From the NCBI GenBank assembly GCA_019192445.1, contig JAHCMK010000003.1, forward strand, positions 1 to 64,000: a stretch of 64,000 nt of DNA, in the 5' to 3' direction. Shown here one piece after another: positions 23,908 through 45,526 of the stretch. The stretch is from Oceanococcus sp. HetDA_MAG_MS8 (GTDB lineage: Bacteria > Pseudomonadota > Gammaproteobacteria > Nevskiales > Oceanococcaceae). Below the pieces are notes generated by a model that was not told where the DNA came from, did not search any database, and saw only the letters and a list, made by a program, of their open reading frames with translations. Every line of letters starts with the position of its first letter. Positions within the stretch are counted from its first letter, which is position 1. The position numbers were made by a program, and so were the translations under genes.

Positions 23908-24639
23908 ATGCATTCAGAGTCTGAGTGGGATTCGGTAGCCAGCCTGCAACGGCGACTGATGATGCGGCCCGTGGACTGCGCCTTTGCGCGCTGGTCCGTG
24001 CATATGCGCCCAGCAGATCGGGTCAGCGGCGATTTTTGTGTGATTGGGCGGCGCGAAGGTGATCGGCTGTGGGGCGCATTCGGAGATGTGATGGGGCACG
24101 GGCCCCTAGCCGCTTCGGTCAATGTGGCTATCCTTGCTGAGCTTGGGCACTTGGCGGACTGTTCCCCAGCACAGCGTTTGGCGGGGCTGAATGCCTTTTT
24201 GGAAAACGACCAAGGGCTGTTCGCCACCGCTATGAGCTTTGACTTGGGACCTGCCGGAGATTGCCTGCTGAGTAGCGCGGGTCACCCGCCGGCCTTGCTG
24301 ATGGATTCCAGCGCGACTCGGCCGGTTCCAGAGTCGACGGGGGCACCGCTGGGTTTATTCGGCGTGGATGAAAACTATGCCGAGCATCACTTGCAATTGC
24401 GTCCGCAGCAGCGCCTACTCTTCGTGAGCGATGGCTTCTTGGAGCGCAATGCCGCCTCCGCGCGTACTAAAGCACTCCCCCTGCGTATTCAGCAGGGGTT
24501 GATGGCTGCCGCTTCAGCGAATGCGCTGAAGGAGGATATTGTGACCATGCGCCGACTGCTGGAGGCTGCGGTGAATGGCCGGCGCAAGGCTGCCGACGAT
24601 CAGACCCTGCTGCTGCTGGAGTACCGCGGAGCTTCTTAG
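23908..24639 (+). CDS. SpoIIE-type (RsbU-like) PP2C phosphatase
   Basis: A 243-residue single-domain phosphatase. Metal-binding aspartates appear in RVSGDFCVI, FGDVMGHGPLAAS, LLFVSDGFLE and ADDQTLLLLEY, the usual order for the SpoIIE/RsbU family, and SAGHPPALL marks the middle. Such enzymes dephosphorylate a STAS anti-anti-sigma factor. There is no sensor domain. It is the first of several partner-switching genes here. No clear ribosome binding site precedes the ATG. Confidence 0.88.
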   Translation: MHSESEWDSVASLQRRLMMRPVDCAFARWSVHMRPADRVSGDFCVIGRREGDRLWGAFGDVMGHGPLAASVNVAILAELGHLADCSPAQRLAGLNAFLENDQGLFATAMSFDLGPAGDCLLSSAGHPPALLMDSSATRPVPESTGAPLGLFGVDENYAEHHLQLRPQQRLLFVSDGFLERNAASARTKALPLRIQQGLMAAASANALKEDIVTMRRLLEAAVNGRRKAADDQTLLLLEYRGAS

Positions 24640-24678
24640 GCCGATGAGGGCTAATCAGTGTGCGCTGAAGGCTTGGTC

Positions 24679-25287
24679 CTAAGATCCCCAGGTCCAAACA
24701 TCCGAATCGGGCTTGCCAAGCGCTTCCGAGCTGCGGAGTAGGGAGCTGACAATGGCATCGACCCGTTGCGTCAATACTTGATCGGCATCGAGTTGCATCA
24801 ACTCTCGGGCAGCCTCCAGCATGGAGCGGCGCCCGGCCTCCAGCCGTGCAATCAAATCGAAAGCATGCAGCGCGGAATACACCACAGAGCGAAGGTGGTC
24901 CTGAGTCCATGCTGCCTTTGGCAAGAAGCCATCAAGCTCTAAACTGAGTGTGGCTTCCCACTCTGTGATGAGCTCGGTACGCGCCGTTGTGAGGATGATG
25001 CGCGTCATCCAGGTGTGGTCCTGTTCGCGTAGATTGCGTATGAAGTCCGCTCCCGTTTGTTGCGCCGCAAGGTCCCAGTCGACAATGGCTACAGCGGGCG
25101 GAGAAGGGTGCCACCGGGTCAGGGCCTGGGCCGGCGTCTGGCACCATTCGAGGGTGGCAGGGCGGCTCCTGAATCGCAGTCCGTCCAGCAACGCTGCACA
25201 CAAGTCGGCCATATCCGGATCATCATCGAGCAGCAGAACCCGCCAGCTGGGCTGGGCGTCATCCGCAAAGGCAGTGTCTGACTTCAT
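24679..25287 (-). CDS. Receiver-domain protein with helical C-terminus
   Basis: A 202-residue protein. Residues about 15-135 form a receiver domain (VLLLDDDPDMADL; acceptor aspartate in AIVDWDLA; ILTTAR; FLPKAAW). Residues 140-202 are helical and match no DNA-binding domain; the part SALHAFDLIARLEAGRRSMLEAARELM may form a coiled coil. Its place between a phosphatase and an RsbW-like kinase suggests it feeds a phosphorelay into partner switching. The gene converges with the phosphatase gene. Confidence 0.8.
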   Translation of the reverse strand: MKSDTAFADDAQPSWRVLLLDDDPDMADLCAALLDGLRFRSRPATLEWCQTPAQALTRWHPSPPAVAIVDWDLAAQQTGADFIRNLREQDHTWMTRIILTTARTELITEWEATLSLELDGFLPKAAWTQDHLRSVVYSALHAFDLIARLEAGRRSMLEAARELMQLDADQVLTQRVDAIVSSLLRSSEALGKPDSDVWTWGS

Positions 25288-25433
25288 CGTGGCTTACATC
25301 TTCTTGGGCTGTGCTCTGACACAAAACTCAACCGATTCGGCGCAAAAGTTGGCGCGTTCGGACAAGTTCACAGTATGCTTGTGGAATAGGTTGAAAGACC
25401 ACATAACTACAGTACCGGAAACAGGGTGGGGAA

Positions 25434-25901
25434 TTGGTTGCTAAGCAGGAATATGCAGTTCCGCTAGAGCTTGTACAAGCCCGTCGACTGCGTGAGTGGA
25501 TTGCACAGGCCGGCGGAAGTGATAAACCCGAATGGGCCCAACACTTAGTGGAGTCCGTGCAGCTTTGCCTCACCGAGTTGCTCACCAACCTCATCGTCCA
25601 CGGGGGGCGCCAGGGTTTGGCGTCCATCAGCTTGGCGCGTCATGCACAAGTGTTAAAGGTGCAAGTCCGCTGTGCGGGGCATAGCTTCTCTTCCGTAGAT
25701 GAATTCGAGCAGGCCAGGCAGAGCTCCTGCGCTGTGCTAGAGCAAGCTGCAACCGATCCCTTGGCACTCAGCGGTCGTGGCATGGGGCTCATTTGCGCGG
25801 CAACACAGAGCTTTGAGTATTCCCAAGTCCAGGACAATGGCCAGGGGCTGGATGTTTATGAATTGGTCTTTGTGGTTGGCTCTGCACCTGCTGGACCCTG
25901 A
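25434..25901 (+). CDS. RsbW-like anti-sigma serine kinase
   Basis: A 155-residue HATPase-fold protein with the N-box ELLTNLIVHG and the G-box SGRGMGLICAA, as in RsbW/SpoIIAB kinases that hold a sigma factor or other target and phosphorylate a STAS antagonist. The start is TTG at 25434 behind a GGGTGGGG stretch. Its last 46 bases overlap the convergent membrane phosphatase gene. No sigma factor gene is adjacent. Confidence 0.82.
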   Translation: MVAKQEYAVPLELVQARRLREWIAQAGGSDKPEWAQHLVESVQLCLTELLTNLIVHGGRQGLASISLARHAQVLKVQVRCAGHSFSSVDEFEQARQSSCAVLEQAATDPLALSGRGMGLICAATQSFEYSQVQDNGQGLDVYELVFVVGSAPAGP

Positions 25902-27094
25902 TACTCGAAGGCGAGAAAACTCAGGTCATCATTGACCCAGCCCTGTTTGCGCGCCATGCGCAGGTCGGCCATCGCCAAGTCGGCCAGCTCAGCTGCATCT
26001 TGAGATTGCTTCAGATGCTTTCCAAGCCAGGTGCAAATTCCTTGTGTTCCATACAGCTGCCCCTGCGGGGTGCGCTGCTCCAAGATGCCATCGGTGTACA
26101 AAAAGAGCACATCACCTGGAGCCAAGGTCCACTGGTGCTCAAAGATATCCTCGGTTTGCAGCTCAAATAACCCCAAGGCAGAGCTAGGCCCGCCGATCAG
26201 GTGCAAGGACCGATCTGCGGCGCGTATCCACACCAAAGGCGGGGCGCCGGCGCTGTGCAGTTGGACTTGGCCATCGGCTTGAACTCGGCAGTGCATGGCT
26301 GTTGCAAAGAGGACTTCGCTAGAACTGTTCAAAGTGCGGTCGATGTCCTTGAGCAAAGCCACACCGTCAGCGTATTCCTTGTAGCGGGCGCTCAAGGCCT
26401 GTACCGATTGAGTGACCAAGGCCGCGGGTACGCCATGGCCCATGGCATCGGCCAGAGTGATCACGAACTGCTGATCATCAGCGGCCACCACGCAGGTATC
26501 CCCCGTGACATCGGCCATGGGCAGAGAAAAATACCGACTCCGGCCGAAAACGGTTTGTGTTTCATGGGGCTGTAATGCCCGTTGCAGGTTGCCGGCAGCT
26601 TGCAGTTCATCATGTTGTGCCTGCGCCCGTTCCTGCAGATTCTTTTGAACCCGGCGGCGCTCGCGGATTTCCCGCCGCAGTGAGTCAGTACGTTGCTCTA
26701 ATATGGATTGCAGGTCGGTTTGGTGGCGCTCTAAGGCGCTGCGCATTTCCTCATTCCAGTCCAAAGACTCACTCAGTTCCATCTCTAGCTGACGGATGGC
26801 ACGCGAGAACATCAGCAACAAAACACCGATAGCGCATTTCACCAGGGCATGCGCAAGCAGCAGAAAATTCTGTTCGTGATATTGAAAAACCTGCGGTGAG
26901 GTCAGATGATGGAAGGAGGTAAAACAAACGCCTCCGGCAATCATTGCAATGCTTGCCCACAGCGCTTTACGGTGTCGAATACGCCCAGGCGCAAAGGCAA
27001 AGGCAAAGGCAATGGCCTGGGCCATGGACGCAAATGCGCTGCCGCTGGCAACCGCCAGCAGCATCAGCTCTATAGCAGCTGCGCTTGCCTCCAT
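25856..27094 (-). CDS. Membrane-bound SpoIIE-type phosphatase
   Basis: A 412-residue protein: three or four membrane helices in residues 1-110, a long coiled coil (about 115-185, rich in E, R and Q), then a SpoIIE/PP2C domain with MADVTGDTCVV, TLADAMGHGVPAALV, HSAGAPPLVW, LFLYTDGILEQ and VNDDLSFLAFEY. It should sense a membrane signal and dephosphorylate a STAS protein. The ATG at 27094 has GAGGAA nearby; a TTG at 27109 is possible. Its 3' end overlaps the RsbW-like gene on the opposite strand. Confidence 0.87.
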   Translation of the reverse strand: MEASAAAIELMLLAVASGSAFASMAQAIAFAFAFAPGRIRHRKALWASIAMIAGGVCFTSFHHLTSPQVFQYHEQNFLLLAHALVKCAIGVLLLMFSRAIRQLEMELSESLDWNEEMRSALERHQTDLQSILEQRTDSLRREIRERRRVQKNLQERAQAQHDELQAAGNLQRALQPHETQTVFGRSRYFSLPMADVTGDTCVVAADDQQFVITLADAMGHGVPAALVTQSVQALSARYKEYADGVALLKDIDRTLNSSSEVLFATAMHCRVQADGQVQLHSAGAPPLVWIRAADRSLHLIGGPSSALGLFELQTEDIFEHQWTLAPGDVLFLYTDGILEQRTPQGQLYGTQGICTWLGKHLKQSQDAAELADLAMADLRMARKQGWVNDDLSFLAFEYQGPAGAEPTTKTNS

Positions 27095-27242
27095 CTGTGG
27101 GTTCCTCAATGCCCGTCCCAGGCTGCATAATGTAACAGTGGCTTTTAGGCCTGTCGTGGATTGGCGCCACGATATTTGGTCGTTACATGAGGGATTCCGA
27201 CAGTTTATTGCTGCGCCTCATATTGCAGTGCTGGGGAGGTTT

Positions 27243-28379
27243 ATGCCCGCCGAGAATGCTGCGCTTAATCGCAGCCTGCGCGAGCAGCGCGGGATTTTTC
27301 TGGTATTCGTCGTCGTCGAACTATTGGCGGCAGCCTTTAGCTTGCACCTCAGCATGCAAGTCGATGGGCATGGCGAAGCGCATTACCAACTTCAGCTCAT
27401 CATCACAGCGATGGTGGTCGCCATGTTGGGCCTGTGCGCGTTTATTGGGGTGTCTGAAGCGGCACGGCCCACAATTTTGGTGGTTGGCGCGGCGGTATTT
27501 GCCTTGTATTTTTCGCGCATGGCTTATGCCATTTTTGTGTGTGCGCATGAAGCCGAGTTGGGTCTGCCGCCCATTTTCATCCATGGTGTGACGGCGATCG
27601 TTTTTCCCTTTGCCATCTTAAGACTGCGTCACGCCACCTGGCTCTCAGCAGGGGCTGTGGCAAGTTTTGCGCTGCTGTTTGCAGCGGGCGCTGCCTTTGG
27701 CGGGGTTGATCTGCAGTCCGCCCATGCCATGGAAATACTGCAGCAAATAGTCTTTGTGAACCCCGCGCTATTGTTATTACTGCGGTTAAGCATCGAGGTG
27801 CAAGCACGCTTGCAGGAGCAAGCTTTGATGTCCTCGCAGGGCCGCGCGCTACCGGAAGTGCCCGTAGTTTTACAATCGCCTGCCACAAGTGTGCTGCAAT
27901 CCGGGTTGCTGACCGCTAGCGAGTTTGTTCGGGCGACACGCCGTCTCGGAGCACAGCTTCATCAGCAGGACAGCACCACAGTGGTTGCGGTCTTGGATCT
28001 GCTCGCGACGGAGCTGCGTCGCCCTGGGAGCAGACCGCGGTCACCTTCGTCACTGTCTGCGTCGCGCTTTCTACACTTGCGTCTGCGCGAGCTGTTTGGT
28101 TCGGCCGCATTGATCGGCCAGTTATCAAAGTTTAGGTTCGCTATTGCCTGTGAGACAGCCGACATCGACAGCCTGATGGACCGGCTCATCGACTTTGCCT
28201 CAGAGCAAAACGGCTATGGACAGGAGGCGGGAAAGCGAGTTGCGCTGGGCCTAGTCGAGTATCGTGTGGGCGAATCTGTGCACACTACTTTGGAGCGCGC
28301 AGAGCGAGCCGTGGAACGCGCTAAGCCGGCTCAAAGCACCGGGGTGAGCTTTTCCTCAGCAGATTTTACTGAGCTATAG
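27243..28379 (+). CDS. Membrane protein with degenerate GGDEF domain
   Basis: A 378-residue protein with five or six membrane helices (about 15-190, MASE-like) and a C-terminal domain that aligns with GGDEF diguanylate cyclases in layout: LTASEFVRATRRL, VVAVLDLL, LRLRELFGSAALIGQLSKFRFAIACE, then ALGLVEYRVGE and LERAERAVERAK. Where active enzymes have GGDEF this one has SKFRF, and the DxxxFKxxND part is missing, so it should not make c-di-GMP. The start ATG 27243 follows GGGGAGG closely. It diverges from the membrane phosphatase gene. Confidence 0.78.
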   Translation: MPAENAALNRSLREQRGIFLVFVVVELLAAAFSLHLSMQVDGHGEAHYQLQLIITAMVVAMLGLCAFIGVSEAARPTILVVGAAVFALYFSRMAYAIFVCAHEAELGLPPIFIHGVTAIVFPFAILRLRHATWLSAGAVASFALLFAAGAAFGGVDLQSAHAMEILQQIVFVNPALLLLLRLSIEVQARLQEQALMSSQGRALPEVPVVLQSPATSVLQSGLLTASEFVRATRRLGAQLHQQDSTTVVAVLDLLATELRRPGSRPRSPSSLSASRFLHLRLRELFGSAALIGQLSKFRFAIACETADIDSLMDRLIDFASEQNGYGQEAGKRVALGLVEYRVGESVHTTLERAERAVERAKPAQSTGVSFSSADFTEL

Positions 28380-28436
28380 CGGCGGACAATAAGGGCTGTG
28401 TTGGGAGCGTCGGAGCCCGGTAAAGGATGCCCAGGA

Positions 28437-28775
28437 TTAAGTGTTTGCCTTGGCCATGGCGCTGTCGACGTCGGCAAAGCTTGGAATACGTTGGTCGATC
28501 TTCAGAAAGCTAATCATCTCTGCAGGCTGGCCTTGACTGCCGCACATGGCAAAGCTGAGCGAACGAGCGCTACATTGTTTGTACGCGTAAACCAATAAGC
28601 CGATGCCGCTGGAGTCGATCATCGGAACGCTGCTGAGATCCATTACCACGGATTGAGGGTTGGATTTGAGCAGCTTTTCCAGCTCGGGGCGAATGCTCTG
28701 CACCTCAAAGGCATCCAAGTCTCCGCTGATTGTCAAAACCACGGCGTTCTTGCGCTTGTCAACTGTGAGAGGCAT
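28437..28775 (-). CDS. STAS-domain anti-sigma factor antagonist (RsbV-like)
   Basis: A 112-residue single STAS domain with the phosphorylation site MIDSSGIGLL (S55/S56), as in SpoIIAA and RsbV. The unphosphorylated form binds the RsbW-type kinase and frees its target. Kinase and phosphatase partners lie within 5 kb. It is divergent from the AraC regulator that starts the cellulose operon. No strong ribosome binding site is visible before the ATG. Confidence 0.9.
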   Translation of the reverse strand: MPLTVDKRKNAVVLTISGDLDAFEVQSIRPELEKLLKSNPQSVVMDLSSVPMIDSSGIGLLVYAYKQCSARSLSFAMCGSQGQPAEMISFLKIDQRIPSFADVDSAMAKANT

Positions 28776-28992: not shown

Positions 28993-30069
28993 ATGCACCG
29001 CTCAGAGGAACACTTTGCGAACTCCAACTCCTTGGTGCACGGCGGCATGGTATCTGTGGCTTGGTTGTACCCCGTTTATCAGGAGCTCAAGGCCAAAGCG
29101 CTGTTGCCGAGGCTGCGGTCTGCAGAGGGGTGGCTGGTAGGTTCCGATCACACCCACCCTGACATGCGCCTGAGTCATGCTGAGGTGTATTCCTTTTGGG
29201 AGGCTGTGCGCACGCAGGTGCCGCAGCTAGAAGAAGCCCTGCTCGGTGCGGTCGAGCGCGTGCGCCTATTTGATCATGAGGGCTTACTTCCTGCGGCGTG
29301 TAGCGCGCCAACCATGCTCGAGGGCATGCGGGTCCTTGAACAGTACTGGTCTATTGCTCACGAACTCTTAGTGCTGGATGTCTTCGAGCTCGATGGGGCT
29401 TTCGGAATCCGCCTGCGCAACGACACCCGCGTGCACGCTCTCGATCAGATGTTCTGCTTTTTGCTGCTCTGCCGGACGCTGCGCGATATGTTGGGTCAGC
29501 GTCCACAGGTGCATGCGCTCTGCCTGAACTTTGCAGAGCCAGAATTAGAGTCAGCGATGGAGTCGGCCCTGGGTGTTCCCGTGTTAACGGACGCAGGGTA
29601 TTCCTCGTTACTGCTAGACCGAGCGCAGGCCAAACTGTCTTTGCCTTTTGCACGGAAGCGCGTGCACCAAGCTCAATTGGATCTGGCCCGGCACGCGTTG
29701 GCGCGTCGCAGTAGTGAGCTGCAGGTGCGCACCGAGGAGTTGGTCGAAACCATACTCAACCGCCGTGAAAGCCCGAGTTTGGAGCGCGTTGCTCAGGGGC
29801 TGTACATGAGTGCGCGAACACTGCAACGCAAACTGGCGGCGCAGGGCTTATCGCTGAGTAGTGTGGTCACCGTGGTGCGACTGCGGCTTGCTCGGCGATA
29901 TTTGCTGGCCTCTCAGCGACCAATAGAACACATTTCCTCGCTGTTGGGGTTCAAGTCTCAGGCCAGCTTTTCGCGCTTCTTCGCCGAGCATAATGGGATG
30001 GCCCCCACAGATTTTCGTCGCCGTCAGGGCATGCTGAATGATGCTCCGCATCGCCATTGGCGGCCGTGA
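28993..30069 (+). CDS. AraC-family regulator heading the cellulose operon
   Basis: A 358-residue regulator with an OruR/ArgR-like N-terminal half (about 20-200) and a C-terminal AraC DNA-binding domain (about 250-345) with two helix-turn-helix units: SLERVAQGLYMSARTLQRKLAAQGL and PIEHISSLLGFKSQASFSRFFAEHNGMAPTDFR. The N-terminal half probably binds a small ligand, not identifiable here. Its stop overlaps the bcsD start as TGATG, so the genes share a transcript; local control of cellulose synthesis is the likely role. Confidence 0.88.
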   Translation: MHRSEEHFANSNSLVHGGMVSVAWLYPVYQELKAKALLPRLRSAEGWLVGSDHTHPDMRLSHAEVYSFWEAVRTQVPQLEEALLGAVERVRLFDHEGLLPAACSAPTMLEGMRVLEQYWSIAHELLVLDVFELDGAFGIRLRNDTRVHALDQMFCFLLLCRTLRDMLGQRPQVHALCLNFAEPELESAMESALGVPVLTDAGYSSLLLDRAQAKLSLPFARKRVHQAQLDLARHALARRSSELQVRTEELVETILNRRESPSLERVAQGLYMSARTLQRKLAAQGLSLSSVVTVVRLRLARRYLLASQRPIEHISSLLGFKSQASFSRFFAEHNGMAPTDFRRRQGMLNDAPHRHWRP

Positions 30070-30629
30070 TGGAAACGATGCATTGGATAACTCAGTCCGA
30101 AGCTGGGATCATAGCGAGAGTAGATCCATCGGGACACGGGATGTTGAGCCGAATGCAGCGACTGCGCGACTTGCGCAAGCCGCCTCATACCGCTGTGATT
30201 TTGCAATCCTTGGCTGAGGTATTGTCAAATAGCGTCGATGCTGGGCAGTTGCGCTCTTTGCTCTATTTGGCAGGAGAGCAACTCGGGCGGGATCACCCCA
30301 CGCCGCAGTGCGAGACCATTGAAGACTTGGAGCTGGCAACCAACCATATCTTCCAGGAATGGGGTTGGGGCTGGGTCACGATCACGCTGCGTGAAGATGT
30401 GATCGATATAGAGGTCGGTGATGCGCCTGTGCACAGCATTTTTGGTCCGAATAGTGCTGAGTGGGCGCCAGCCGTCTTTGAAGGTTTACTCAAAGAGTGG
30501 TTGGTGGAGCTCGGTGCTGGGGCCGACCTGGTCCTGCGGCAAATCATCAGTGACGCCGACGATCCACATATTTTGTACTTCCGAATGGCTCACGCCAGTG
30601 TATTCGACAGTGGGGAGAGTGAAGCATGA
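30069..30629 (+). CDS. bcsD: Cellulose synthase operon protein BcsD
   Basis: A protein of up to 186 residues. The part from about residue 50 matches the BcsD family of Komagataeibacter: a LLYLAGEQLG helix, C-E-T-I-E-D-L-E-L, WGWGWVTITLRED, the conserved W-A-P-A-V-F-E-G-L, and the end ILYFRMAH. BcsD forms periplasmic octameric rings in Komagataeibacter or scaffolds with proline-rich partners that order the export of glucan chains. No signal peptide is seen, as usual for the family. The ATG at 30069 overlaps the araC stop; ATG 30141 is an alternative closer to family length. Confidence 0.82.
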   Translation: METMHWITQSEAGIIARVDPSGHGMLSRMQRLRDLRKPPHTAVILQSLAEVLSNSVDAGQLRSLLYLAGEQLGRDHPTPQCETIEDLELATNHIFQEWGWGWVTITLREDVIDIEVGDAPVHSIFGPNSAEWAPAVFEGLLKEWLVELGAGADLVLRQIISDADDPHILYFRMAHASVFDSGESEA

Positions 30630-31252
30630 CTCGGCGCCCACCGCAGAGCAGCGTAGACATTATGGCTAAAGACAGAAAACCCGATGCAGACAGCAAGCAA
30701 GCCATTGACGACGTGCAGATGATGCTGCGGTCCTTGGGGCTGGCAGACTTTGGTTATCAGGATGAGCCGCAACCCGATGGTCGGCCGTCTTGGGCGCCCG
30801 CGCGCGTGCCAGCCTCGCCCGAGCGTCGTCCATCGCAGCGGCCTCAGTCGCAGGCTGTATCTGCTCAGATCCCAGTTGAGAAGAACTCCGCGAAGAAGAG
30901 CGAAGAGAGCAAGCGGGAGTCGCCGCGAGCCCCTGCGCCGCAACAGGTGGATGCGCCAGCCGTGCCTGCGAATAGAACCCTGCACTCACACAGCGCGCCC
31001 CCCAAATCTGTGCCTCAGCCGGGCCAAGCACTGGAGCAGCCGCGGGCTGAGGACAAGTCTGTGAGCTTGCGTGAGGCCTTTTCGCGCTTAGCCGCCAAGG
31101 CGCCTGCAGCCAAACCCAAGGGATTGAAGCTGCAGCTGGATAAAGTGCCCCAAGCGTCCAGCCCAGCGCGGAGCGTGGCGCGCAATAGCAAACGAGACTT
31201 GCGCAGTGTCTTCGGCCGCATGACAGCGCGCCCGCCAAAGACATCAGGCTAA
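30626..31252 (+). CDS. Proline-rich cellulose synthesis protein (BcsP-like)
   Basis: A 208-residue low-complexity protein rich in P, S, R, K and Q. The N-terminal segment DDVQMMLRSLGLADFGYQD resembles the conserved core of BcsR/BcsP. Residues 45-140 are disordered. Near the end are two copies of an LRxxFxR motif: SLREAFSRLAAKAP and DLRSVFGRMTARPP. Proline-rich Bcs proteins (BcsP, BcsO, BcsH) occur with BcsD, and BcsH makes a scaffold with BcsD rings. The ATGA overlap with bcsD supports a joint role. The symbol is left blank because the family call rests on composition, position and short motifs. Confidence 0.7.
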   Translation: MTRRPPQSSVDIMAKDRKPDADSKQAIDDVQMMLRSLGLADFGYQDEPQPDGRPSWAPARVPASPERRPSQRPQSQAVSAQIPVEKNSAKKSEESKRESPRAPAPQQVDAPAVPANRTLHSHSAPPKSVPQPGQALEQPRAEDKSVSLREAFSRLAAKAPAAKPKGLKLQLDKVPQASSPARSVARNSKRDLRSVFGRMTARPPKTSG

Positions 31253-31308
31253 TCCACTTCCTCCGCCAGTGGGTGTAGCCCATTGGTCTTCGATTGCCTG
31301 AGGCCAAG

Positions 31309-33438
31309 ATGCTGTTTTCCGTCAAACCCAACACATTACTGCTGATTTTGGCTGGAGCCGGGCTGGCCTTATGCGCCGCGCCTTTGCTCACCATGCAGCT
31401 CAGTCTTGTCGGCCAGCTCCTGTTTGGCCTGGGGTGTATTGCCACCAGTTATTTGCTCACGCGACTGAAGGATCGGCCGTGGCTGCTCTATACCCTGATG
31501 GGGATATCGGGCTTAACCACCTTAAGGTATCTGAGCTGGCGGCTGACCCAAACCATGCCCTTTGGTCCGGGCTTTGGCCTCGTCGATCAGGTGTTGGCGC
31601 TTGGCCTGATTGCAGCAGAACTCTACGCCCTGGTGATCTTGGTTTTTGGCTACTTTCAGGTACTCAAGCCTTTGCGGCGCAAACCGGTCCGCTTGCCCGC
31701 TGATCAAGACCTGTGGCCCAGCGTAGACGTTTACATCCCTTCGTATAACGAGCCTTTGGATGTGGTCCGCCCTACTGTACTCGCGGCGCTCAAGCTGGAT
31801 TGGCCTGCGGAGAAACTCAAAGTCTATGTTTTGGACGATGGGCGCCGAGAGGAATTCGGTGCCTTCTGCGCGCAGGTGGGTGCGACCCACATCACCAGGG
31901 ACAACAACCGGCATGCCAAGGCTGGAAACATTAACCAAGCCATGGAGAAGACGACGGGAGAGGTCATCGCCATATTCGATTGCGACCACATCCCGACTCG
32001 GTCCTTTTTGCAGTTGACGGTTGGCACCATGGTGGCCAATCCCAAAGTGGCGCTGGTGCAGACTCCGCACCATTTCTTCTCACCCGACCCTTTTGAGCGC
32101 AATCTCGATCTGTTCCGCAAGGTGCCCAACGAGGGTGAGCTGTTCTATGGCTTGCTCCAGGACGGTAATGATTATTGGGGGGCGACCTTCTTTTGCGGCT
32201 CATGCGCCTTGCTGCGTCGTACGGCGCTGGAGGAGGTCGGAGGTATCGCCGTGGAAACCGTGACCGAAGATGCGCATACCTCTTTGAAAATGCACCGCCG
32301 CGGTTGGGAAAGTGCGTACATCAACATTCCCCAAGCCGCTGGCTTGGCCACCGAATCGCTGTCTGCTCATGTTGGCCAGCGAATTCGATGGGCACGCGGT
32401 ATGGCGCAGATTTTTCGCGTTGACAACCCGCTGCTGAAAAAGGGGCTGCGCTGGGGACAGCGAATCTGCTATGCCAATGCCATGCTGCACTTTTTCTATG
32501 GCATTCCACGCATTGTGTTCTTGACGGCGCCATTGGCTTATTTGTTCTTCGACGCCAAAATTATTGCCGCTCAGGGCAGCCTGATTGCCGCTTACGCCTT
32601 GCCCCACCTGGTGTTGGCGATTATGACCAACTCGCGCATTCAGGGGGCCTATCGACATTCCTTCTGGGCAGAGGTTTACGAGACGGTACTCGCTGCATTC
32701 ATCATCGTCCCGACCACATTGGCGATCGTCAATCCCAAGCTGGGTAAATTTAACGTGACGGCTAAAGGCGGCATTGTCGATCGCGATTACTTCGACGCGG
32801 ATATTGCCAAACCCTACATGTGGCTATTCATCCTGAATATGGTTGGCATCGCAGTGGGTATGGGGCGGCTGATGTTGCCCGACGCGGCGACCGAAACCCT
32901 TTGGCTGAATATGGGTTGGACGGCGTACAACCTTTTGATCCTGGGGGCGGCCATTCGGGTGGCCGCGGAGAGCCAGCAGCGTAGGCTGCATGTGCGCGTG
33001 GATATGCACGTCCCCCTCCTAGTACGGCCTGCGCCGAGCGCCGAACAGCCGGACCCAGATTATGAGATTGGCGAAACCGTGGATATGTCCTATGGCGGGC
33101 TGAGTTATCTCTCGCTGGGTCTGATCGATCTGGACGATGGTGCTCCGGTGGAAGTGGCCTTGCTGCCTGAACGCAAAATCATGTGGTTACCAGGCACCGT
33201 TCGCCGTATTGGCGAAACGCGAGTTGCCATCCAGTTCTCGGAGATGACCTTGGAACAACAGAGCTATTTGGTGTACGTGCTATACGGGCGGGCCGATTCT
33301 TGGCTGGCCTGGCGTAAAGAAGAAACCCGTGATCGGCCCTGGCGGGCTTTGGCACATGTCGCCCGTTTCGGTTGGGCTGGCGCTGGAATCGCGCTGCGCT
33401 CCTTGCTCAATGGGCTTCGAGGAGCCAAGCATGCTTAA
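31309..33438 (+). CDS. bcsA: Cellulose synthase catalytic subunit BcsA
   Basis: A 709-residue processive family 2 glycosyltransferase of the inner membrane that polymerises UDP-glucose into beta-1,4-glucan and threads the chain outward. Active-site motifs are all present: D176-D177-G178, D224-C225-D226, T319-E320-D321 and QRIRW at 357-361. The C-terminal PilZ domain has the c-di-GMP-binding arginines R559/R563 (RLHVR) and D592-M-S-Y-G-G. About eight membrane helices flank the catalytic domain. The ATG at 31309 with GAGG upstream is preferred over a TTG at 31294. The gene overlaps bcsB by eight bases. Confidence 0.96.
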   Translation: MLFSVKPNTLLLILAGAGLALCAAPLLTMQLSLVGQLLFGLGCIATSYLLTRLKDRPWLLYTLMGISGLTTLRYLSWRLTQTMPFGPGFGLVDQVLALGLIAAELYALVILVFGYFQVLKPLRRKPVRLPADQDLWPSVDVYIPSYNEPLDVVRPTVLAALKLDWPAEKLKVYVLDDGRREEFGAFCAQVGATHITRDNNRHAKAGNINQAMEKTTGEVIAIFDCDHIPTRSFLQLTVGTMVANPKVALVQTPHHFFSPDPFERNLDLFRKVPNEGELFYGLLQDGNDYWGATFFCGSCALLRRTALEEVGGIAVETVTEDAHTSLKMHRRGWESAYINIPQAAGLATESLSAHVGQRIRWARGMAQIFRVDNPLLKKGLRWGQRICYANAMLHFFYGIPRIVFLTAPLAYLFFDAKIIAAQGSLIAAYALPHLVLAIMTNSRIQGAYRHSFWAEVYETVLAAFIIVPTTLAIVNPKLGKFNVTAKGGIVDRDYFDADIAKPYMWLFILNMVGIAVGMGRLMLPDAATETLWLNMGWTAYNLLILGAAIRVAAESQQRRLHVRVDMHVPLLVRPAPSAEQPDPDYEIGETVDMSYGGLSYLSLGLIDLDDGAPVEVALLPERKIMWLPGTVRRIGETRVAIQFSEMTLEQQSYLVYVLYGRADSWLAWRKEETRDRPWRALAHVARFGWAGAGIALRSLLNGLRGAKHA

Positions 33439-35620
33439 CAAATTGTTTGTCCCCGTCTTGCTGGCCTTGGCGCTGGTTGGGCCTGGTTATGCGCAATCAT
33501 TGGCGGCGCCGCTCAGCGCTCCTGAACATGGCTATGCCATGGCTGCTGAAGGTCCGCAGCGTCTGGATTTTCGGCGCCTGGGGGCGACCACCGCCCTCCG
33601 TCTGCGGGGGGAGTTCGCGCAATACTCCCTGCCATTTGCGGTGCGTGAAGACCAATATGTCCGCGATGCGCGTCTGGAGTTGAAGGTGGCTTTCTCTCCG
33701 CAGCTCAATCCCGAGCGTAGTCAGCTGCGCGTATTTCTCAATGATGAGGTCGTCGCGGCTGCTCGCTTAGCCGATTTGCCAAGTCCAGGCCAATGGACTC
33801 TGGCTTTGGATCCGGCCCTGTTCGTGGTTTACAACGATTTACGCTTTGAGCTCATTGCCGCCGACGCAGGGGTTGGCCCCGACAACTGCTTGGATCCCTT
33901 GAGCCCAGCACTGTGGCTGGAGGTGGCGCAGTCGAGTGCTTTGCAGCTGGAGTTGGGCAACCTGCCTTTGGCGCCCGACCTCGGCCGCTTGCCCGCGCCT
34001 TTTGTGAGCGCCGCAGATAGTCGGCGGGTTGGAGTCACGATGGTACTTCCCAGCCAGCCTGGTCCGCAGACGCTGCGCGCTGCGGTGACTTTGGCCAGCT
34101 GGTTGGGTATGCATGCCGATTATCGGGGGCTGGAGGTGACGGTGCGCCAGGGTGAGCTGCCTCCTCAGGGGCATGTGATCGTGCTCCAGAACACCACCGA
34201 GACGCGCCGGGCGCTGACAGCAGCGAGCATGAATGACGGCCCCCTCGTTCGCATCCAAGGTCACCCCCTGGATCGATCGGCGCAAATGCTCATCGTCTCT
34301 GGGGCCACACCGGAGCAGATGTTGCTGGCCGCACAGGGGCTGGCCTACGGGCATGCGGGTATGAGCGGAGAGCAGGCACGGGTGGTGAATTTCTCGGTGC
34401 CGGAGCCGCGGCCGCTTTATGCATCGCCGCGTTGGCTGCAAACGGAGGAATCGATTGCCCTAGACGATTTGATTGATGATCCCTTGTCGGTGCGCGGTTT
34501 GAATGCCGGGCCACTACAAGTGGAATTCCGGCTGCCACCGGATCTCTACTTTTTCTCCAGCGCTGAGCCGCGTTTGCACTTCGATTACCGCGCATCCGTG
34601 GCTGCGGCTCAAGGGTCATCTCTGAGTGTCTTGCTCAATGACCAGTTCGCTGATCAGGTGCCGGTGGCTCGGCGCGACGATGGTCGTGCCACGCGGGCAG
34701 TGACCAGCCTGCCGCCGACTCAGCTGACCCACCGCAATCAACTGAGCTGGCAATTCAACTTTGTCAAAACCACCAATAAGCCCTGTGAGGCCTATGACAG
34801 CAATAGCTGGGAGGGCTCGATCGATCGCAATATTCGGATGGTCTTGCCCAGACATGCGCACTTTGCGCAGATGCCGAACTTGGCCAAGCTGCGCAATGGA
34901 GGCTATCCCTTTTCACGGGCGGTGGATGGGGCACAAATGGCGTTTGTGCTCGGCCAGCAGCCCAGTTCCCAGGAACTGTCGGCTGCTCTTACCTTGGCTG
35001 CCTACTTAGGCCGCGAAGCCGGCGTGCCTTTATGGCATGCGCAAGTGTATGCCGACAGCCCCGCGGTCTTGGAGCAGGACAAGGACTTATTAATCGTCGG
35101 CACTCTTGCGGGTATGCAAGTCTTGGATGCCCTCGACGATGCACTGCCGCTGAGTCGGGAAGGCAATACCTTGCGGCTACGCCGCCCCTCATTGGCCGAG
35201 CAAGTGCAGGCCTGGCTAGAAGATCGCGACCTGCAAGCGGCCAATGACTACGCCGGAAAGGTGCTGCTCGAATCTCAGGGACGACTTGCGGCCTACATGC
35301 AAATCGAGTCTCCGCAGCATGCCGGGCGCAGTGTGGTGATTGTGGCCGCCGAAGACCCTAGTGGTCTGCCGCAAGCCGCGAAGACCTTGCTCGACCCCGG
35401 GCGGGCGCAATACCTCAGCGGCGATCTCGCTTTGGTCAATGCCCGACAGGTATCCAGCTTTGACCTGGGGCCCCGCTATGGTGTGGGCGAACTGCCGCTG
35501 GATCAGCGGGTACTGCGTTGGTTACAGCGTCACCCTTACAGCGTCATCCCTCTCATGCTACTGACGGTGCTGCTCTTTGTACTCTGCATACGTTTGGGGT
35601 TGAGTCGCCGTGCGGGTTAG
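33431..35620 (+). CDS. bcsB: Cellulose synthase periplasmic subunit BcsB
   Basis: A 729-residue protein with a signal peptide (LFVPVLLALALVGPGYAQS), alternating carbohydrate-binding and flavodoxin-like domains across the periplasm, and a C-terminal membrane anchor (VIPLMLLTVLLFVLCIRLGL) that pairs with BcsA. It guides the glucan chain through the periplasm. GAGGAG lies six bases before the ATG, which overlaps the end of bcsA. Length and layout are normal for the family. Confidence 0.94.
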   Translation: MLNKLFVPVLLALALVGPGYAQSLAAPLSAPEHGYAMAAEGPQRLDFRRLGATTALRLRGEFAQYSLPFAVREDQYVRDARLELKVAFSPQLNPERSQLRVFLNDEVVAAARLADLPSPGQWTLALDPALFVVYNDLRFELIAADAGVGPDNCLDPLSPALWLEVAQSSALQLELGNLPLAPDLGRLPAPFVSAADSRRVGVTMVLPSQPGPQTLRAAVTLASWLGMHADYRGLEVTVRQGELPPQGHVIVLQNTTETRRALTAASMNDGPLVRIQGHPLDRSAQMLIVSGATPEQMLLAAQGLAYGHAGMSGEQARVVNFSVPEPRPLYASPRWLQTEESIALDDLIDDPLSVRGLNAGPLQVEFRLPPDLYFFSSAEPRLHFDYRASVAAAQGSSLSVLLNDQFADQVPVARRDDGRATRAVTSLPPTQLTHRNQLSWQFNFVKTTNKPCEAYDSNSWEGSIDRNIRMVLPRHAHFAQMPNLAKLRNGGYPFSRAVDGAQMAFVLGQQPSSQELSAALTLAAYLGREAGVPLWHAQVYADSPAVLEQDKDLLIVGTLAGMQVLDALDDALPLSREGNTLRLRRPSLAEQVQAWLEDRDLQAANDYAGKVLLESQGRLAAYMQIESPQHAGRSVVIVAAEDPSGLPQAAKTLLDPGRAQYLSGDLALVNARQVSSFDLGPRYGVGELPLDQRVLRWLQRHPYSVIPLMLLTVLLFVLCIRLGLSRRAG

Positions 35621-35625
35621 CGCTC

Positions 35626-36750
35626 ATGCCGGTTAAACCGCGTCGACTGCCTTGCCTGCGAAGGCTTGGGGTGCTCTGCTTGTGCCTGGGTATTTGCTTT
35701 CAGGCTCAAGCCAGCTCCTGGCCGCTGTGGGAAGGCTTCAAGCAAGGTTTTATCAGTGACCAGGGCCGGGTGATTGATTGGCAAGACGGGGCCAGAACGG
35801 TCTCGGAGGGGCAGGTGTACGCCTTGTTCTTCGCGCTGGTCGCCAACGATCAAGAGACCTTCGAGTCGGTACTGGAATGGAGTGTGGCCAACTTGGCCCG
35901 TGGCAATGTCGCTGACATTGGCATGGCATGGTTGTGGGGGCAGGACAAAGTCACCAAAAGCTGGGGTGTCTTGGATGCGAACCCGGCCACCGACGCCGAA
36001 ATGTTTCTAGCTTATGCGTTGCTCGAGGCTGCTCGGCTGTGGCAACGGCCAGACTGGGCGAAACTGGGTGATCAGGTCTTGGCCAGGGTCGAGTCACAGA
36101 TGATCAAGCGCCAGGGGGATCGGGTGGTGTTGTTGCCGGCTCCCTTCGGTTTCGAGTTGGCCCAAGGCCTGCGTACCAATCCTTCCTACTTGCCGGCCTG
36201 GCAGCTGGCTTACTTCGCCCAACACTCCCAAAACCCGCTGTGGTTTGAGCTGTTGGCGCAGCTTCCCCAACTCTTGCAGAGCAGCAGCCCCCATGGTTTG
36301 CCTCCAGACTGGGTGCTGGTCACGCCGGAAGGCTATGCGCCTGACTCAGAGCGGGGCACTTTGGGCTCGTATGACGCCATTCGCTGCTACCTTTGGGCAG
36401 CGATGAGCCCCGCCCATACCGACCCAGACAAACACGCTCTCAAGCCGGTGATTACCCTGTTGCAGCGTCAGCAAACCGCTCCGGAGCGTTGGGATGTGGC
36501 CACAGGCTGGACCACGGGGGTAGGGCCAGTGGGCTTTGAGGCTAGCCTGGCCTTGTACGCCACCTGGCAACAAGAGCCAGAGCTGGCGCAGCGTCTCTGG
36601 GCCCGCGTGGCAGCGCAAACGCACGATGGTTTGGTCGGGTCGCCGGCACGCTATTACGATCAAGTGCTCACTCTGTTTGCGCAGGGTTATGCGCAGAACC
36701 GCTTTGCCTTTGCCGCTGATGGCGCTTTGCGTCGTGGGGAGACCCTGTGA
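35626..36750 (+). CDS. bcsZ: Periplasmic endoglucanase BcsZ (GH8)
   Basis: A 374-residue family 8 glycoside hydrolase that cuts beta-1,4-glucan during cellulose export. A signal peptide covers residues 1-30. The catalytic acid is E61 (TVSEGQVYAL), the base is probably D250 (GSYDAIRCYLW), and D123 (ATDAEMF) is the conserved substrate-binding aspartate. The start is five bases after the bcsB stop and the end overlaps bcsC as TGATG. Confidence 0.94.
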   Translation: MPVKPRRLPCLRRLGVLCLCLGICFQAQASSWPLWEGFKQGFISDQGRVIDWQDGARTVSEGQVYALFFALVANDQETFESVLEWSVANLARGNVADIGMAWLWGQDKVTKSWGVLDANPATDAEMFLAYALLEAARLWQRPDWAKLGDQVLARVESQMIKRQGDRVVLLPAPFGFELAQGLRTNPSYLPAWQLAYFAQHSQNPLWFELLAQLPQLLQSSSPHGLPPDWVLVTPEGYAPDSERGTLGSYDAIRCYLWAAMSPAHTDPDKHALKPVITLLQRQQTAPERWDVATGWTTGVGPVGFEASLALYATWQQEPELAQRLWARVAAQTHDGLVGSPARYYDQVLTLFAQGYAQNRFAFAADGALRRGETL

Positions 36751-39700
36751 TGAAGCCGACCCTCTTGCTGGTCTTGACTCTGTTACTTGCTGGGCCGGCC
36801 CAGGCGCAAGATTCCAACAATGGCTTGCAGCCCCTGATTGACCGAGCCGAGGAGTTGGAATCTCGCGGTCGTTTGGACCTGGCCATACAGACCTGGGAAC
36901 GACTGTTGAGCTTGCAGCCAGACAGTGAGCTGGCGCTGGCTCGTTTGGCCGGTCTGCATGAACAAAACGGTGCCGCTGACCTCGCCGCGCAATATCGGCG
37001 ACGCCTGGCAGAGCTCAACCCAAACAGCAGCCACTTACAGGGCTTGCAGGCCAAACAAGAGGCCTTGTTGCGGCAGCGGGAGTTGGTCTCTACGGCTCGC
37101 ACCGCAGTGCGTGAGGGGGATTTCGAGCGCGCGGCTCAGGCCTACTATCAGGCGCAGGATGTGCTGAGCCCGGAGGGAGCACTGGCCGTTGAAATATATG
37201 AAGGTATGGCCGGACAGGAGGCCTATTGGGAGCAGGCTGAAAAGGCTTTGCGCTCACTGGCACAGGCCGATCCCGATAATGCTCGCTTGCAGCTCGCCCT
37301 GGCGCGCGTGCACTCTTATCGACCGCAGACTCGGCGCCAGGCCATTGCTGAGCTATTCGACCTGCAGCAGCAGCTGAGTGTCGCCGCACCTGCCAAGGCC
37401 AGCTTGCGTCAGGCCCTGATCTGGTTGGAGCCCAGGGCCGCTGATCGTGGCTTGATTCAGCGCTACCTGCGCGAGATCGACGACGCCCCGGAGATTCGCG
37501 CCAAACTCGACCTGTTACGCCGGCAAGCCAGCAATCAGCGCCAGCAGCGCATTCAAGATCAGGCCGATGAGGCTTATGCTCTCTTAAGTGCAGGTGATGT
37601 TGCGGCTGCACGGCTACGGTTTCAGATGCTCGCAGAGCAGTACCCAGATGCTGGAGCGCCATTGGCTGGGCTGGCTGCCGTGGCGCAAACGGCCGGTGAC
37701 CAGGAACAGGCGGTGGCTTTCTACGAGCAGGCCAACCGCAAAAGCCCGGCCCAGTCTCGCAATTGGGCCGCAGGGCTGCGCAGTGCCCGCTTTTATCGTG
37801 ACTACAATCGCGCCGAGCAACTGCGCCTGCAAGGCAACTGGGAGGCGGCCGTGCCCCTCTTTGAGCAAGCGTTTGCCGCTGCGCCACCGGATGTGGATCC
37901 GAGCTTGCGCTTGCCCTATGCGCTGAGTTTGCAGCAGCAGGACAACTTCTCGGCTGCCATCGAGCAGTTGCAATTGGTGCTCGCCCAGCAGCCCAATCAA
38001 GCCGATGCGCGCCGGATGCTTGCCGAGGTGTATTTACGCCAGGGGAATTTAGCGGCCGCGGAAGAGCTGGTATCTACTGCAGAGGACGAGCAAATCCGTA
38101 CCCGCTTACGTCCAGCGCAGGCCGAGCGGCTGCGCGATCAGGCTCAGCAGCAGTATGCGGCGCAGCGCTACGCTGCTGCTCGTAGCCTGCTGGAGGAGGC
38201 CCTGACCCTAGACCCCGACAGCCCTTGGATCCGGCTTGATCTGGCCAGGAATCTGCGGGAGTTGGGTCAGGTGGAGGCTGCGGGTGATCTCCTCCAATCC
38301 TTGCTGCAGACGCATGGTGACGAAGCCGATGTCCGCAAGGCGGTGGCTTACCAGCAGGCTGATGCGCAGCAGTGGCCTGCGACGCTGCGCATTCTGGAAA
38401 CCATTCCCGTCGCTGCACGGGACCCGGAGCTGGTCAAACTGCAGCGCAGAGCCTGGATTGAATACCAAATTCAGCGTGCCAAGCAGGCCGCGGCACGGGG
38501 GAATTGGAGCACCGCAGATGCGGCGCTCTCAGCGGCAGCGCGGGCTGTAGGCAATGATCAAAGCTACTTTCCAAGCTTGGCCACGGGTTGGCAAACACTG
38601 GGAGACTCCGCACGGGCGCTGAGTTATCTGCGCAGGGCGATGGCCGGCGAAGCCGCAGATACCGGGGTCAAGTTGCAGTATGCCGCCATGTTGCTGCAAA
38701 ACGGTCTGGACGCGGAATTTACCGCCTTGGTCAACAGTTTGCGGGATGAGCCCCTGTCCTCGACGCAACAACAGAATCTGCAAGAGTTAGTTGTGGGCTA
38801 CCGGCTGCAGCTGGCGGACAGAGCCAGGGAGGCCGGCGATTATGCGACGGCTTATGATGCTCTGCGCGACGTGATTGTGCGCAGGCCCGAAGACACCAAT
38901 GTGGTGCTGGCGCTGGCCCGTATTTTCGCTGGCGCTGGTGATCATGAGGAAGCGCTGGCCCTCTACCAGCGGGTCTTAGATGAAGAACCCGGTCACCGTG
39001 CTGCCAACCTGGGGCTTGCGCAAACCGCCATTAGCGCTGGCCTAGATACCGAGATAATCCGCGGGGCATTGCGGCGGCTGCGGCGCGAGGATGCAACAGA
39101 CCCTGCCTACTTAGAACTGGAAGCTCAATATGCCCAGGCGCGCGGACTAGATGCCCGGGCCTTGCGCTTTATGCGGGCGGCGCAGCGTCAGCAGCAGACC
39201 AAGGAGACCACGCGCCCACCTCGGTTGGCGCTGCAGCGCTTAGCACCGACCAACTCAGTGCCATCCACGGCGGACGCTATTCCCCTGGCAGAGCCGCTGG
39301 CCCTCAAGCCTGGGGCATTTGCACGCCCTGTGTCTCCGCAGGCAGAGCCAAGTCTGTTTGCCCAGTTGCAGCCCTTACGTTTGCAATCGGCAGATTCCAC
39401 CACGCAGATGCCCGCGAGTATTGTGCTGAAGCTGGCTCCACAACTGCGGCCACGTTTTTTACGCTCGCAGCAATCCCTGCCCGCGAATGAGAGCGCGGAG
39501 AATCGGCCCATGCGTAGCTCTCCTACGGCCATGCAGCGACTACAAGCGCAGGTCAGTCCTAGGGCGACTGCGGACCTACGCTCTAGACTCCGCCAAGGGG
39601 AGGCCGGTTTGTCACGCTTATCCGATGTGGCGCTACCCCTGCAATTGCACTCCAAAGCTTTCGAATGGGGCACGGTGGGCGTTGCCGTCCGGCCTCAGGT

Positions 39701-40541
39701 GATTAGTGCGGGGGAGCTGAGCGGCGAAGCCCGCCTGCGGCTGGGGACGCTGGCATTGATTGGAGGCGGGGAGGCGGACTCGATTTCTGTGAACGACTCG
39801 GGTTTGGCCGGTAGTTTGCACTTTGCCCAGGGCGCGTTGAGCGCGAGCATTGGAGTGACGCCCTATGGGTTCTTGGAGGACCGCCTCACAGGGCATGTAC
39901 GCTGGCAGCCCCAATGGGGCGATTGGCAGCCCAAGCTGGGTTTTGTGCGCCTACCCGTCACCGATAGTGTTTTGTCCTGGGCTGGCCAACGCGATGCTTT
40001 GCTGGGCGTAAATTGGGGCGGTGTGTCCCGCTCTGGCATGGAGCTTGGTCTGGTGCGCGACATTGGCTTGTCCGGAGTCTATGCGGATCTACGCGTATCC
40101 CAGCTGGATGGACGGAATGTGGATGAGAACGCCAGCGTGGAAATGAGCGCTGGCACCTACCGCCATCGCGATTTACCCACATGGGGCCGGCTGACCTACG
40201 GCTTCAACATCACGGCCTTTGGTTATCAGACTTTCCGTGAAGACGGCGCGCCATGGTTTCCAACCAGCGCCATACTTCAGCAGGAGTTAGATCTGCTGCG
40301 CGTCGCAGAGCCCGAGCTAGACCTAGCTGGGGGTTATGCAGGCCTCGATGATTCCGGTTTGGCCTACTTGCTGCGCGGCGATTTGAGTTACCCCGTAGCG
40401 GATCGGCTTGCTGTCACGGGGCGTTTTTCCGTAGATAACGCCCAGAACTTCCGCGAGTACATTTTCCATATGGGCTTGCGTTATTCCTTTACCGGTCCCG
40501 TGGAGTTCAACAATGCCTTTGCGCAAGACTTCTTCCGCTAA
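36750..40541 (+). CDS. bcsC: Cellulose export outer membrane protein BcsC
   Basis: A 1263-residue protein: a signal peptide (1-21, ending AQA), about 19 TPR-like repeats in the periplasm (about 25-820), a Pro/Gln-rich linker (about 820-910) and a C-terminal outer membrane beta-barrel (about 930-1263) ending in the aromatic residue pattern DFFR. It forms the exit pore for cellulose. ATG 36750 is chosen over GTG 36747; GGGGAG lies upstream. Confidence 0.94.
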   Translation: MKPTLLLVLTLLLAGPAQAQDSNNGLQPLIDRAEELESRGRLDLAIQTWERLLSLQPDSELALARLAGLHEQNGAADLAAQYRRRLAELNPNSSHLQGLQAKQEALLRQRELVSTARTAVREGDFERAAQAYYQAQDVLSPEGALAVEIYEGMAGQEAYWEQAEKALRSLAQADPDNARLQLALARVHSYRPQTRRQAIAELFDLQQQLSVAAPAKASLRQALIWLEPRAADRGLIQRYLREIDDAPEIRAKLDLLRRQASNQRQQRIQDQADEAYALLSAGDVAAARLRFQMLAEQYPDAGAPLAGLAAVAQTAGDQEQAVAFYEQANRKSPAQSRNWAAGLRSARFYRDYNRAEQLRLQGNWEAAVPLFEQAFAAAPPDVDPSLRLPYALSLQQQDNFSAAIEQLQLVLAQQPNQADARRMLAEVYLRQGNLAAAEELVSTAEDEQIRTRLRPAQAERLRDQAQQQYAAQRYAAARSLLEEALTLDPDSPWIRLDLARNLRELGQVEAAGDLLQSLLQTHGDEADVRKAVAYQQADAQQWPATLRILETIPVAARDPELVKLQRRAWIEYQIQRAKQAAARGNWSTADAALSAAARAVGNDQSYFPSLATGWQTLGDSARALSYLRRAMAGEAADTGVKLQYAAMLLQNGLDAEFTALVNSLRDEPLSSTQQQNLQELVVGYRLQLADRAREAGDYATAYDALRDVIVRRPEDTNVVLALARIFAGAGDHEEALALYQRVLDEEPGHRAANLGLAQTAISAGLDTEIIRGALRRLRREDATDPAYLELEAQYAQARGLDARALRFMRAAQRQQQTKETTRPPRLALQRLAPTNSVPSTADAIPLAEPLALKPGAFARPVSPQAEPSLFAQLQPLRLQSADSTTQMPASIVLKLAPQLRPRFLRSQQSLPANESAENRPMRSSPTAMQRLQAQVSPRATADLRSRLRQGEAGLSRLSDVALPLQLHSKAFEWGTVGVAVRPQVISAGELSGEARLRLGTLALIGGGEADSISVNDSGLAGSLHFAQGALSASIGVTPYGFLEDRLTGHVRWQPQWGDWQPKLGFVRLPVTDSVLSWAGQRDALLGVNWGGVSRSGMELGLVRDIGLSGVYADLRVSQLDGRNVDENASVEMSAGTYRHRDLPTWGRLTYGFNITAFGYQTFREDGAPWFPTSAILQQELDLLRVAEPELDLAGGYAGLDDSGLAYLLRGDLSYPVADRLAVTGRFSVDNAQNFREYIFHMGLRYSFTGPVEFNNAFAQDFFR

Positions 40542-43114: not shown

Positions 43115-43154
43115 GGTGTCCTTTCCCCAAGGGAGGTTGCGGTGTGTGAATGCC

Positions 43155-44641: not shown

Positions 44642-45526
44642 CTAGGCCGAGCCCAGCTTTCGCTGCATCACTATGGTTCGGCCCTCATCTTCCCAAACGG
44701 TTTGGTCCATGACGCGCCGGATCAGGAATAAGCCGCGTCCACTCTCCTCCAGCACGTCGGGGACCGTGTCACTATTGTGCTCGGAAGGGCGAAATCCAGG
44801 GCCTTCGTCCGTCACCCTGAGCTCCGCGACACGACTGGATTTGGCCAGACGAAGCTGTATGCGCACCAGACGGTGGCAATAGGGCGGTTGTTGCTCACGC
44901 TGCGCGATGAGTTGATCGTAGCCAGACCATCCTAAATCTTCGCGTTGGTGGCCGGGAATCTCTAAGTTGCCATGGATGACAGCATTCAAAAGGGCTTCAT
45001 GTGCTGCCAATCGAATGTGCTCTAAATCCTGTGACTGCGCGCCAAAGGGCTGCACACAACGTGTGATGTGCTGACAAACGCCGGCTGTGGCCCCGACGCG
45101 AGATTGCATCTCCCAATGGTGCTCAGCGGTAAATAGGGGGTCTACCGTGTCCTTGCGCGCATCCCACCAGCCCTGGCAGCGGGCCAAGGTCGCATTGAGT
45201 TGGGCGCGCCCAAAAGGCTTCAGTAAGAAGTCGACGATGTTGCCGCGCACCGCACGTGCCGCCTCGCGGAAATCTGCATGCCCGCTGACGATGACGGTGG
45301 GAAGCTCGATATGGTGGTCGGCCAGGGCGCGCAGCATGGAAAAGCCATCGAAATCAGGCATTTTGATGTCGAGGAACAGCGCATCGAAATTGTGAGGTGT
45401 TTGCTGCAAACGAGCCAAGGCGGTCCGTGCATTGGTGTCCGCGGTGACCACATGCCCGAGTAACTGCAAGCTATTGGCGATTTGCTCGACGAAGCTTGCA
45501 TCATCATCAACTAACAACATGCGCAT
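44642..45526 (-). CDS. Receiver-HATPase (RsbW-like) fusion protein
   Basis: A 294-residue protein. Residues 1-125 are a receiver domain (MLLVDDDASF, acceptor aspartate in ALFLDIKMPDFDGF, LLKPFG). Residues about 150-290 are an anti-sigma-type HATPase (AAHEALLNAVIHGN, VTDEGPGF, ESGRGLFLIRRVMDQTVW). Phosphorylation of the receiver could thus control a serine kinase or a sequestering domain in the same chain. It starts 20 bases before the stop of the upstream histidine kinase gene, its obvious phosphate donor. Confidence 0.85.
   Translation of the reverse strand: MRMLLVDDDASFVEQIANSLQLLGHVVTADTNARTALARLQQTPHNFDALFLDIKMPDFDGFSMLRALADHHIELPTVIVSGHADFREAARAVRGNIVDFLLKPFGRAQLNATLARCQGWWDARKDTVDPLFTAEHHWEMQSRVGATAGVCQHITRCVQPFGAQSQDLEHIRLAAHEALLNAVIHGNLEIPGHQREDLGWSGYDQLIAQREQQPPYCHRLVRIQLRLAKSSRVAELRVTDEGPGFRPSEHNSDTVPDVLEESGRGLFLIRRVMDQTVWEDEGRTIVMQRKLGSA

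Follow-up and report, generated by a model that had tools for sequence, protein, structure and literature searches.

What does a partner-switching gene cluster control when no sigma factor is encoded beside it? The question is raised by positions 23908-28775 of a 64-kb stretch of Oceanococcus sp. HetDA_MAG_MS8, here called the window (G000:C3:1-64000 of a 3.53-Mb genome), in which six intact open reading frames (ORFs) alternate in strand (+, -, +, -, +, -) upstream of a cellulose (bcs) operon. In order, they encode a soluble SpoIIE phosphatase (+), a receiver (-), an RsbW-like protein (+), a membrane SpoIIE phosphatase (-), a degenerate GGDEF protein (+) and a STAS protein (-). An initial annotation, made from the sequence alone, proposed that the cluster governs cellulose or biofilm formation. 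The evidence supports a partner-switching module that has no local sigma factor and contains a non-catalytic GGDEF protein. The genes under discussion are as follows.

23908..24639, + strand: soluble SpoIIE/PP2C phosphatase, 243 amino acids (aa), add-on pair (PF07228, E 5e-28)
24679..25287, - strand: receiver with C-terminal extension, 202 aa, add-on pair (PF00072, Response_reg, E 2e-10)
25434..25901, + strand: RsbW/SpoIIAB-fold ATPase-like protein, 155 aa, core (PF13581, HATPase_c_2, E 2e-10)
25856..27094, - strand: membrane SpoIIE/PP2C phosphatase with coiled linker, 412 aa, core (PF07228, E 1e-33; hydrophobic segments)
27243..28379, + strand: degenerate GGDEF protein, six predicted transmembrane segments, 378 aa, core (profile match to SiaD 7e6g)
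28437..28775, - strand: STAS switch protein, SypA-like, 112 aa, core (PF01740, E 4e-21; TIGR00377 over cut-off)
28993..30069, + strand: AraC-family regulator, member of the bcs operon (PF12833/PF12625)
30057..40541, + strand: cellulose operon bcsD, bcsP-like, bcsA, bcsB, bcsZ, bcsC; context, outside the conserved core (PF03500; TIGR03030; PF03170; collinear in a sister genus)
44642..45577, - strand: receiver-HATPase_c_2 fusion with intact ATP-binding motifs (PF00072, E 6e-21; PF13581, E 4e-20)

Which of these genes belong together is indicated by a congener genome (G001). One of its contigs (C17) carries the STAS, degenerate GGDEF, membrane SpoIIE and RsbW-like genes in identical order and alternating orientation, with the whole block inverted. 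Identity between the two species is 50-51% for the STAS protein, 33% for the membrane SpoIIE, ∼31% for the degenerate GGDEF protein and 28-30% for the RsbW-like protein. The flanks of the core differ, a FemAB-like gene following the RsbW-like gene in the congener. The preservation of order and orientation despite low identity and changed flanks argues for one functional module of four genes, and the synteny dismisses chance clustering of the core. The RsbW-like gene and the membrane SpoIIE gene run toward each other, with 3' ends that overlap by 46 bp in the window (25856-25901) and abut exactly in the congener, and the degenerate GGDEF gene is divergent from the membrane SpoIIE gene. The Pfam-matched ORF of the membrane phosphatase spans 25856-27109 (-), with the start probably near 27094. 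In the congener, a PAS-GGDEF-EAL protein is encoded divergently from the STAS gene (L024 6008-8290, -); TSLHF replaces its GGDEF motif and its EAL motif is not recognisable.

The soluble SpoIIE and receiver genes, which are convergent, are not near the congener module, and the six genes are thus rejected as one conserved unit. The soluble phosphatase has a paralogue elsewhere in the same genome (G000:C4, 37% identity), where the paralogous SpoIIE and receiver pair (L027 6522-9563) encloses a MetOD1-domain protein and a histidine kinase; no STAS match was found in that locus. Residues D21/D22, D70, T101 and K124 are conserved between the add-on receiver and its C4 paralogue. Both SpoIIE proteins of the cluster keep the metal-binding aspartates. 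The gene inventory of the initial annotation therefore holds, as Pfam matches on intact ORFs confirm the two phosphatases (soluble and membrane), the receiver, the RsbW-like protein and the STAS protein; the six genes do lie together, with the first two as an add-on pair and not as part of a single unit.

The degenerate GGDEF protein (27243-28379) has no Pfam match. A profile built from the two species finds SiaD (7e6g) as its best structural match (E 8.5e-5), with other GGDEF structures weaker, and the congener copy gives a weak match to PF00990 (E 0.023). The PDB entry 7e6g is the structure of SiaD (PMC8457831). At the GGEEF position the window protein reads SKFRF and the congener TAHRY, and at the RxxD I-site position the two read GSAA and GDNA, respectively. 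Six hydrophobic segments are present in the protein of both species. The profile match and the missing A-site and I-site motifs bear out the initial description of the protein as degenerate. With its catalytic motifs lost, an active cyclase is rejected, and by sequence the protein is expected to lack both synthesis and I-site binding of cyclic di-GMP (c-di-GMP). When the degenerate-GGDEF profile is run against class-wide genomes it picks up GGDEF domains; these were not accepted as module members, being mostly GGDEF-region matches in other architectures.

The RsbW-like protein also departs from its relatives at its ATP site. Its AlphaFold2 model (pLDDT 84) adopts the GHKL anti-sigma fold, and the best PDB matches are SpoIIAB (first, E 1e-6), UsfX and RsbW, all above histidine kinases. 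The protein retains the Glu and Asn of the N-box as well as the GRG motif. The G1-box Asp contacts adenine in this ATPase superfamily; it is Cys in the window protein, Ala in both congener proteins and Asp in seven of seven outgroup relatives. The second congener protein is a lone RsbW-like protein (L026 9695-10135, -, G001:C5) in which the G1-box Asp is likewise lost. Loss of this residue makes the kinase activity of the RsbW-like protein doubtful, and the protein may catalyse weakly or not at all. Beyond the bcs operon, 44642-47711 (-) encodes a receiver-HATPase_c_2 fusion and a histidine kinase, adjoined by a GAF protein (47782-48351). The fusion (44642-45577) has the motifs TDEGPGF and GRGLFLI and is a candidate for the true STAS kinase.

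The STAS protein carries the phospho-acceptor motif IDSSG. According to a genome inventory, no other free-standing canonical STAS protein is encoded apart from an MlaB-like one, leaving one obvious substrate for the phosphatases and RsbW-like proteins. Aligned by the SypA residue numbers of PMC4517449 and PMC10120452, for which we infer a constant numbering offset of one, it agrees with SypA at D47, D55, S56, Y64, Y66, K67, G83, Q84, E87 and P99. The Y66/K67/G83/Q84 set is missing from four generic STAS proteins whose loci also hold ordinary RsbW and SpoIIE genes. The window protein thus appears to resemble SypA, a Vibrio biofilm regulator, more closely than the generic antagonists. The SypA switch has SypA itself, and no sigma factor, as its output (PMC10120452). 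Other genomes harbor SypA-like STAS genes next to genes for SypE-like fusions and polysaccharide export (L069, L071), and tripartite RsbW-REC-PP2C fusions are present in L069-L071. In L071 (8167-13699, G427:C77), where gene names were assigned by eye from the sequence, a syp-like polysaccharide locus contains a SypA-like STAS, OmpA-like, Wza-like and Wzc-like proteins and a SypE-like RsbW-REC-PP2C fusion.

We judge it an even call that the four genes form a sigma-less partner switch whose STAS output binds a non-sigma partner, most likely the dead membrane GGDEF protein. Phosphorylation of STAS at its DSSG motif would depend on the balance between the phosphatases and a kinase, and signalling would run toward the dephosphorylated STAS as the output. 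By analogy with SiaABC-SiaD, HsbA-HsbD, BgrV-BgrR and SypE-SypA, its partner would most likely be the adjacent membrane GGDEF protein, which, having lost cyclase function, could serve as a subunit for docking or regulation. The soluble PP2C and the receiver would be additions made in this species, where the output probably reaches the nearby cellulose system; its target in the congener would have to be a different one.

Several observations weigh against this reading. The four-gene core is known from two genomes, and a search of the order's other 83 genomes found no relatives of the RsbW-like or GGDEF protein. In a scan of genome contigs, a single STAS query gave no match and a two-species STAS profile matched the congener alone. 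The AlphaFold2 model of the degenerate GGDEF protein is poor (pLDDT 41, from three alignment rows of which two are the same protein); a Foldseek search with it returns ImcA, SiaD and GGDEF domains, in agreement with the profile, and is not counted as proof. R68, a critical residue of SypA, is Q in the window STAS, and R93 is K. The congener has the core module, with no BcsB or BcsD found. A sister genus of the same family (G002) has a STAS gene beside bcs; neither an RsbW relative nor one of the degenerate GGDEF protein was detected there, and its STAS protein is 28% identical to that of the window and groups with generic STAS proteins in a small tree. The sister-genus protein may thus not be an orthologue, the tree being too weak to settle the matter.

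The surroundings of the STAS gene raise the possibility of a dedicated cellulose regulator, in which STAS or the degenerate GGDEF protein gates cellulose synthesis through BcsA/BcsD or AraC. The AraC gene (28993-30069) overlaps the start of bcsD (30057) and therefore heads the bcs operon, which gives a CelA TIGR03030 match over cut-off; no AraC homologue was found beside bcs in the 10 relatives examined. The STAS gene is one gene away from araC-bcs, and in the sister genus a STAS gene precedes bcsD by ∼50 bp on the same strand, the bcs operon there being collinear with that of the window. The Bgr switch of Sinorhizobium offers a precedent, as it controls a mixed-linkage beta-glucan (Baena 2019, as cited in PMC7647112), a polymer made by a cellulose-synthase-like enzyme as outlined in PMC5567048. 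Against a dedicated role, the sister genus is the sole case among the 39 other BcsD loci of the order in which a STAS gene lies near bcsD, with none in the remaining 38, several of which are on short stretches. Other genomes of the order that carry cellulose genes yielded no relatives of the RsbW-like and GGDEF proteins. Together with the congener, which keeps the module without BcsB or BcsD, this indicates that module and cellulose are mutually independent. STAS and cellulose may have been associated since early in the history of the family; the core module does not serve cellulose alone, and a dedicated cellulose regulator is unlikely. The proposal of cellulose or biofilm control in the initial annotation stands in part: the STAS gene upstream of bcsD in the sister genus and the SypA-like STAS favor it, the congener module does not, and control of cellulose by the module is plausible. 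A GH12 (PF01670) cellulase-like gene, additional to the BcsZ of the operon, lies just past bcs (43142-44497, +). No Rfam families were found in 22000-46000, a promoter scan gave matches at chance level, and terminator-like sites number 15 versus a shuffle mean of 6.6, many of them falling inside genes.

Alternatively, adjacency to bcs could be accidental and the module could serve an unrelated envelope or stress output. The differing flanks in the two species are consistent with this, as are the alternating single-gene units, with no operon joining the module to bcs. Weighing on the other side, the sole free-standing canonical STAS protein of a 3.5-Mb genome adjoins bcs, and a STAS gene is first in the bcs operon of the sister genus, two coincidences that are unlikely unless inherited. 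Accidental adjacency is given a minority share of our confidence.

A classical anti-sigma switch, in which the RsbW-like protein sequesters a distant sigma factor, STAS frees it and the GGDEF protein stands by or acts as a sensor, would fit the predicted fold of the RsbW-like protein, which models as SpoIIAB/RsbW. The genome holds eight matches to Sigma70_r2 (Pfam), seven over cut-off, and the HsbR-HsbA switch of Pseudomonas aeruginosa acts post-translationally on RpoS, as described in PMC6482189. None of the matches is within the 64-kb window, as the initial annotation had stated for the cluster; the nearest on the same contig is at C3:177209, leaving no sigma gene within 113 kb. Moreover, the conserved neighbor of the switch in the congener is a degenerate GGDEF gene and not a sigma factor, and the STAS protein most resembles SypA, whose switch uses STAS as the output. 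An anti-sigma switch is therefore improbable. Equally improbable is a form of the sigma-less partner switch in which the cyclase-like and RsbW-like partners are both catalytically dead and signalling proceeds solely by competitive STAS binding, phosphorylation coming from outside (e.g. 44642-45577) and the GGDEF protein serving as an effector platform for cellulose or another envelope output.

The sigma-less switch acting on the dead GGDEF protein can be set beside partner switches already known to act independently of sigma factors on GGDEF proteins or polysaccharides, namely SiaABCD, HsbA-HsbD, Bgr and Syp, as summarized in PMC8457831, PMC7647112 and PMC10120452. The initial annotation had pointed to such non-sigma targets, c-di-GMP enzymes and polysaccharides among them, and these systems are kin by design. 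What SypA-like STAS proteins act on directly is described as unknown (PMC10120452). In both species studied here, a SypA-like STAS is tied to one particular membrane protein, which hence is a candidate target; if this is correct, the partner switch would act through a pseudo-enzyme and not through c-di-GMP synthesis.

SiaABCD of P. aeruginosa (PMC8457831, PMC7647112) likewise consists of four genes for a membrane PP2C, a kinase, a STAS-fold switch protein and a GGDEF protein, with no sigma factor. The best NCBIfam match of the membrane SpoIIE is SiaA, as the best PDB profile match of the degenerate GGDEF protein is SiaD; the linker and PP2C regions score 48.7 bits against SiaA NF038263, below the cut-off of 700, and the protein is not assigned as a SiaA equivalog. 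SiaC is a DUF1987 protein, whereas the switch protein here is a STAS protein (PF01740/TIGR00377). The cyclase SiaD is soluble and active, whereas the GGDEF protein here is dead and membrane-bound (SKFRF/TAHRY), and the sia genes form one operon while the genes here alternate strands. SypA/SypE of Vibrio fischeri (PMC10120452, PMC4517449) share most of the SypA core residues, the STAS output, the polysaccharide context and the RsbW, receiver and PP2C functions, which are three separate genes here and one tripartite SypE there; no GGDEF protein is described in that switch, and R68 and R93 are not kept here. The BgrU/BgrW/BgrV-BgrR system of Sinorhizobium meliloti (Baena 2019, through PMC7647112 and PMC8457831) is similar by description in its phosphatase, kinase, STAS protein, GGDEF protein and beta-glucan, but has in BgrR an active diguanylate cyclase. 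RsbU/RsbV/RsbW-sigma B of Bacillus subtilis shares the protein folds and presumed phospho-chemistry, and differs from the present module, which has no local sigma factor and an RsbW-like protein without the ATP-site Asp. In HsbR, kinase and phosphatase are fused. The HptB-HsbR-HsbA-HsbD system of P. aeruginosa, as cited in PMC7647112, resembles the module in that a STAS protein acts on a GGDEF protein and differs in that HsbD is an active cyclase. With a switch protein that is not DUF1987, a dead cyclase, a split SypE and no local sigma factor, the module works like these systems and is a member of none. Sigma-independent partner switches are already known; what is new is a dead GGDEF protein as a putative module partner and an RsbW without the ATP-binding Asp.

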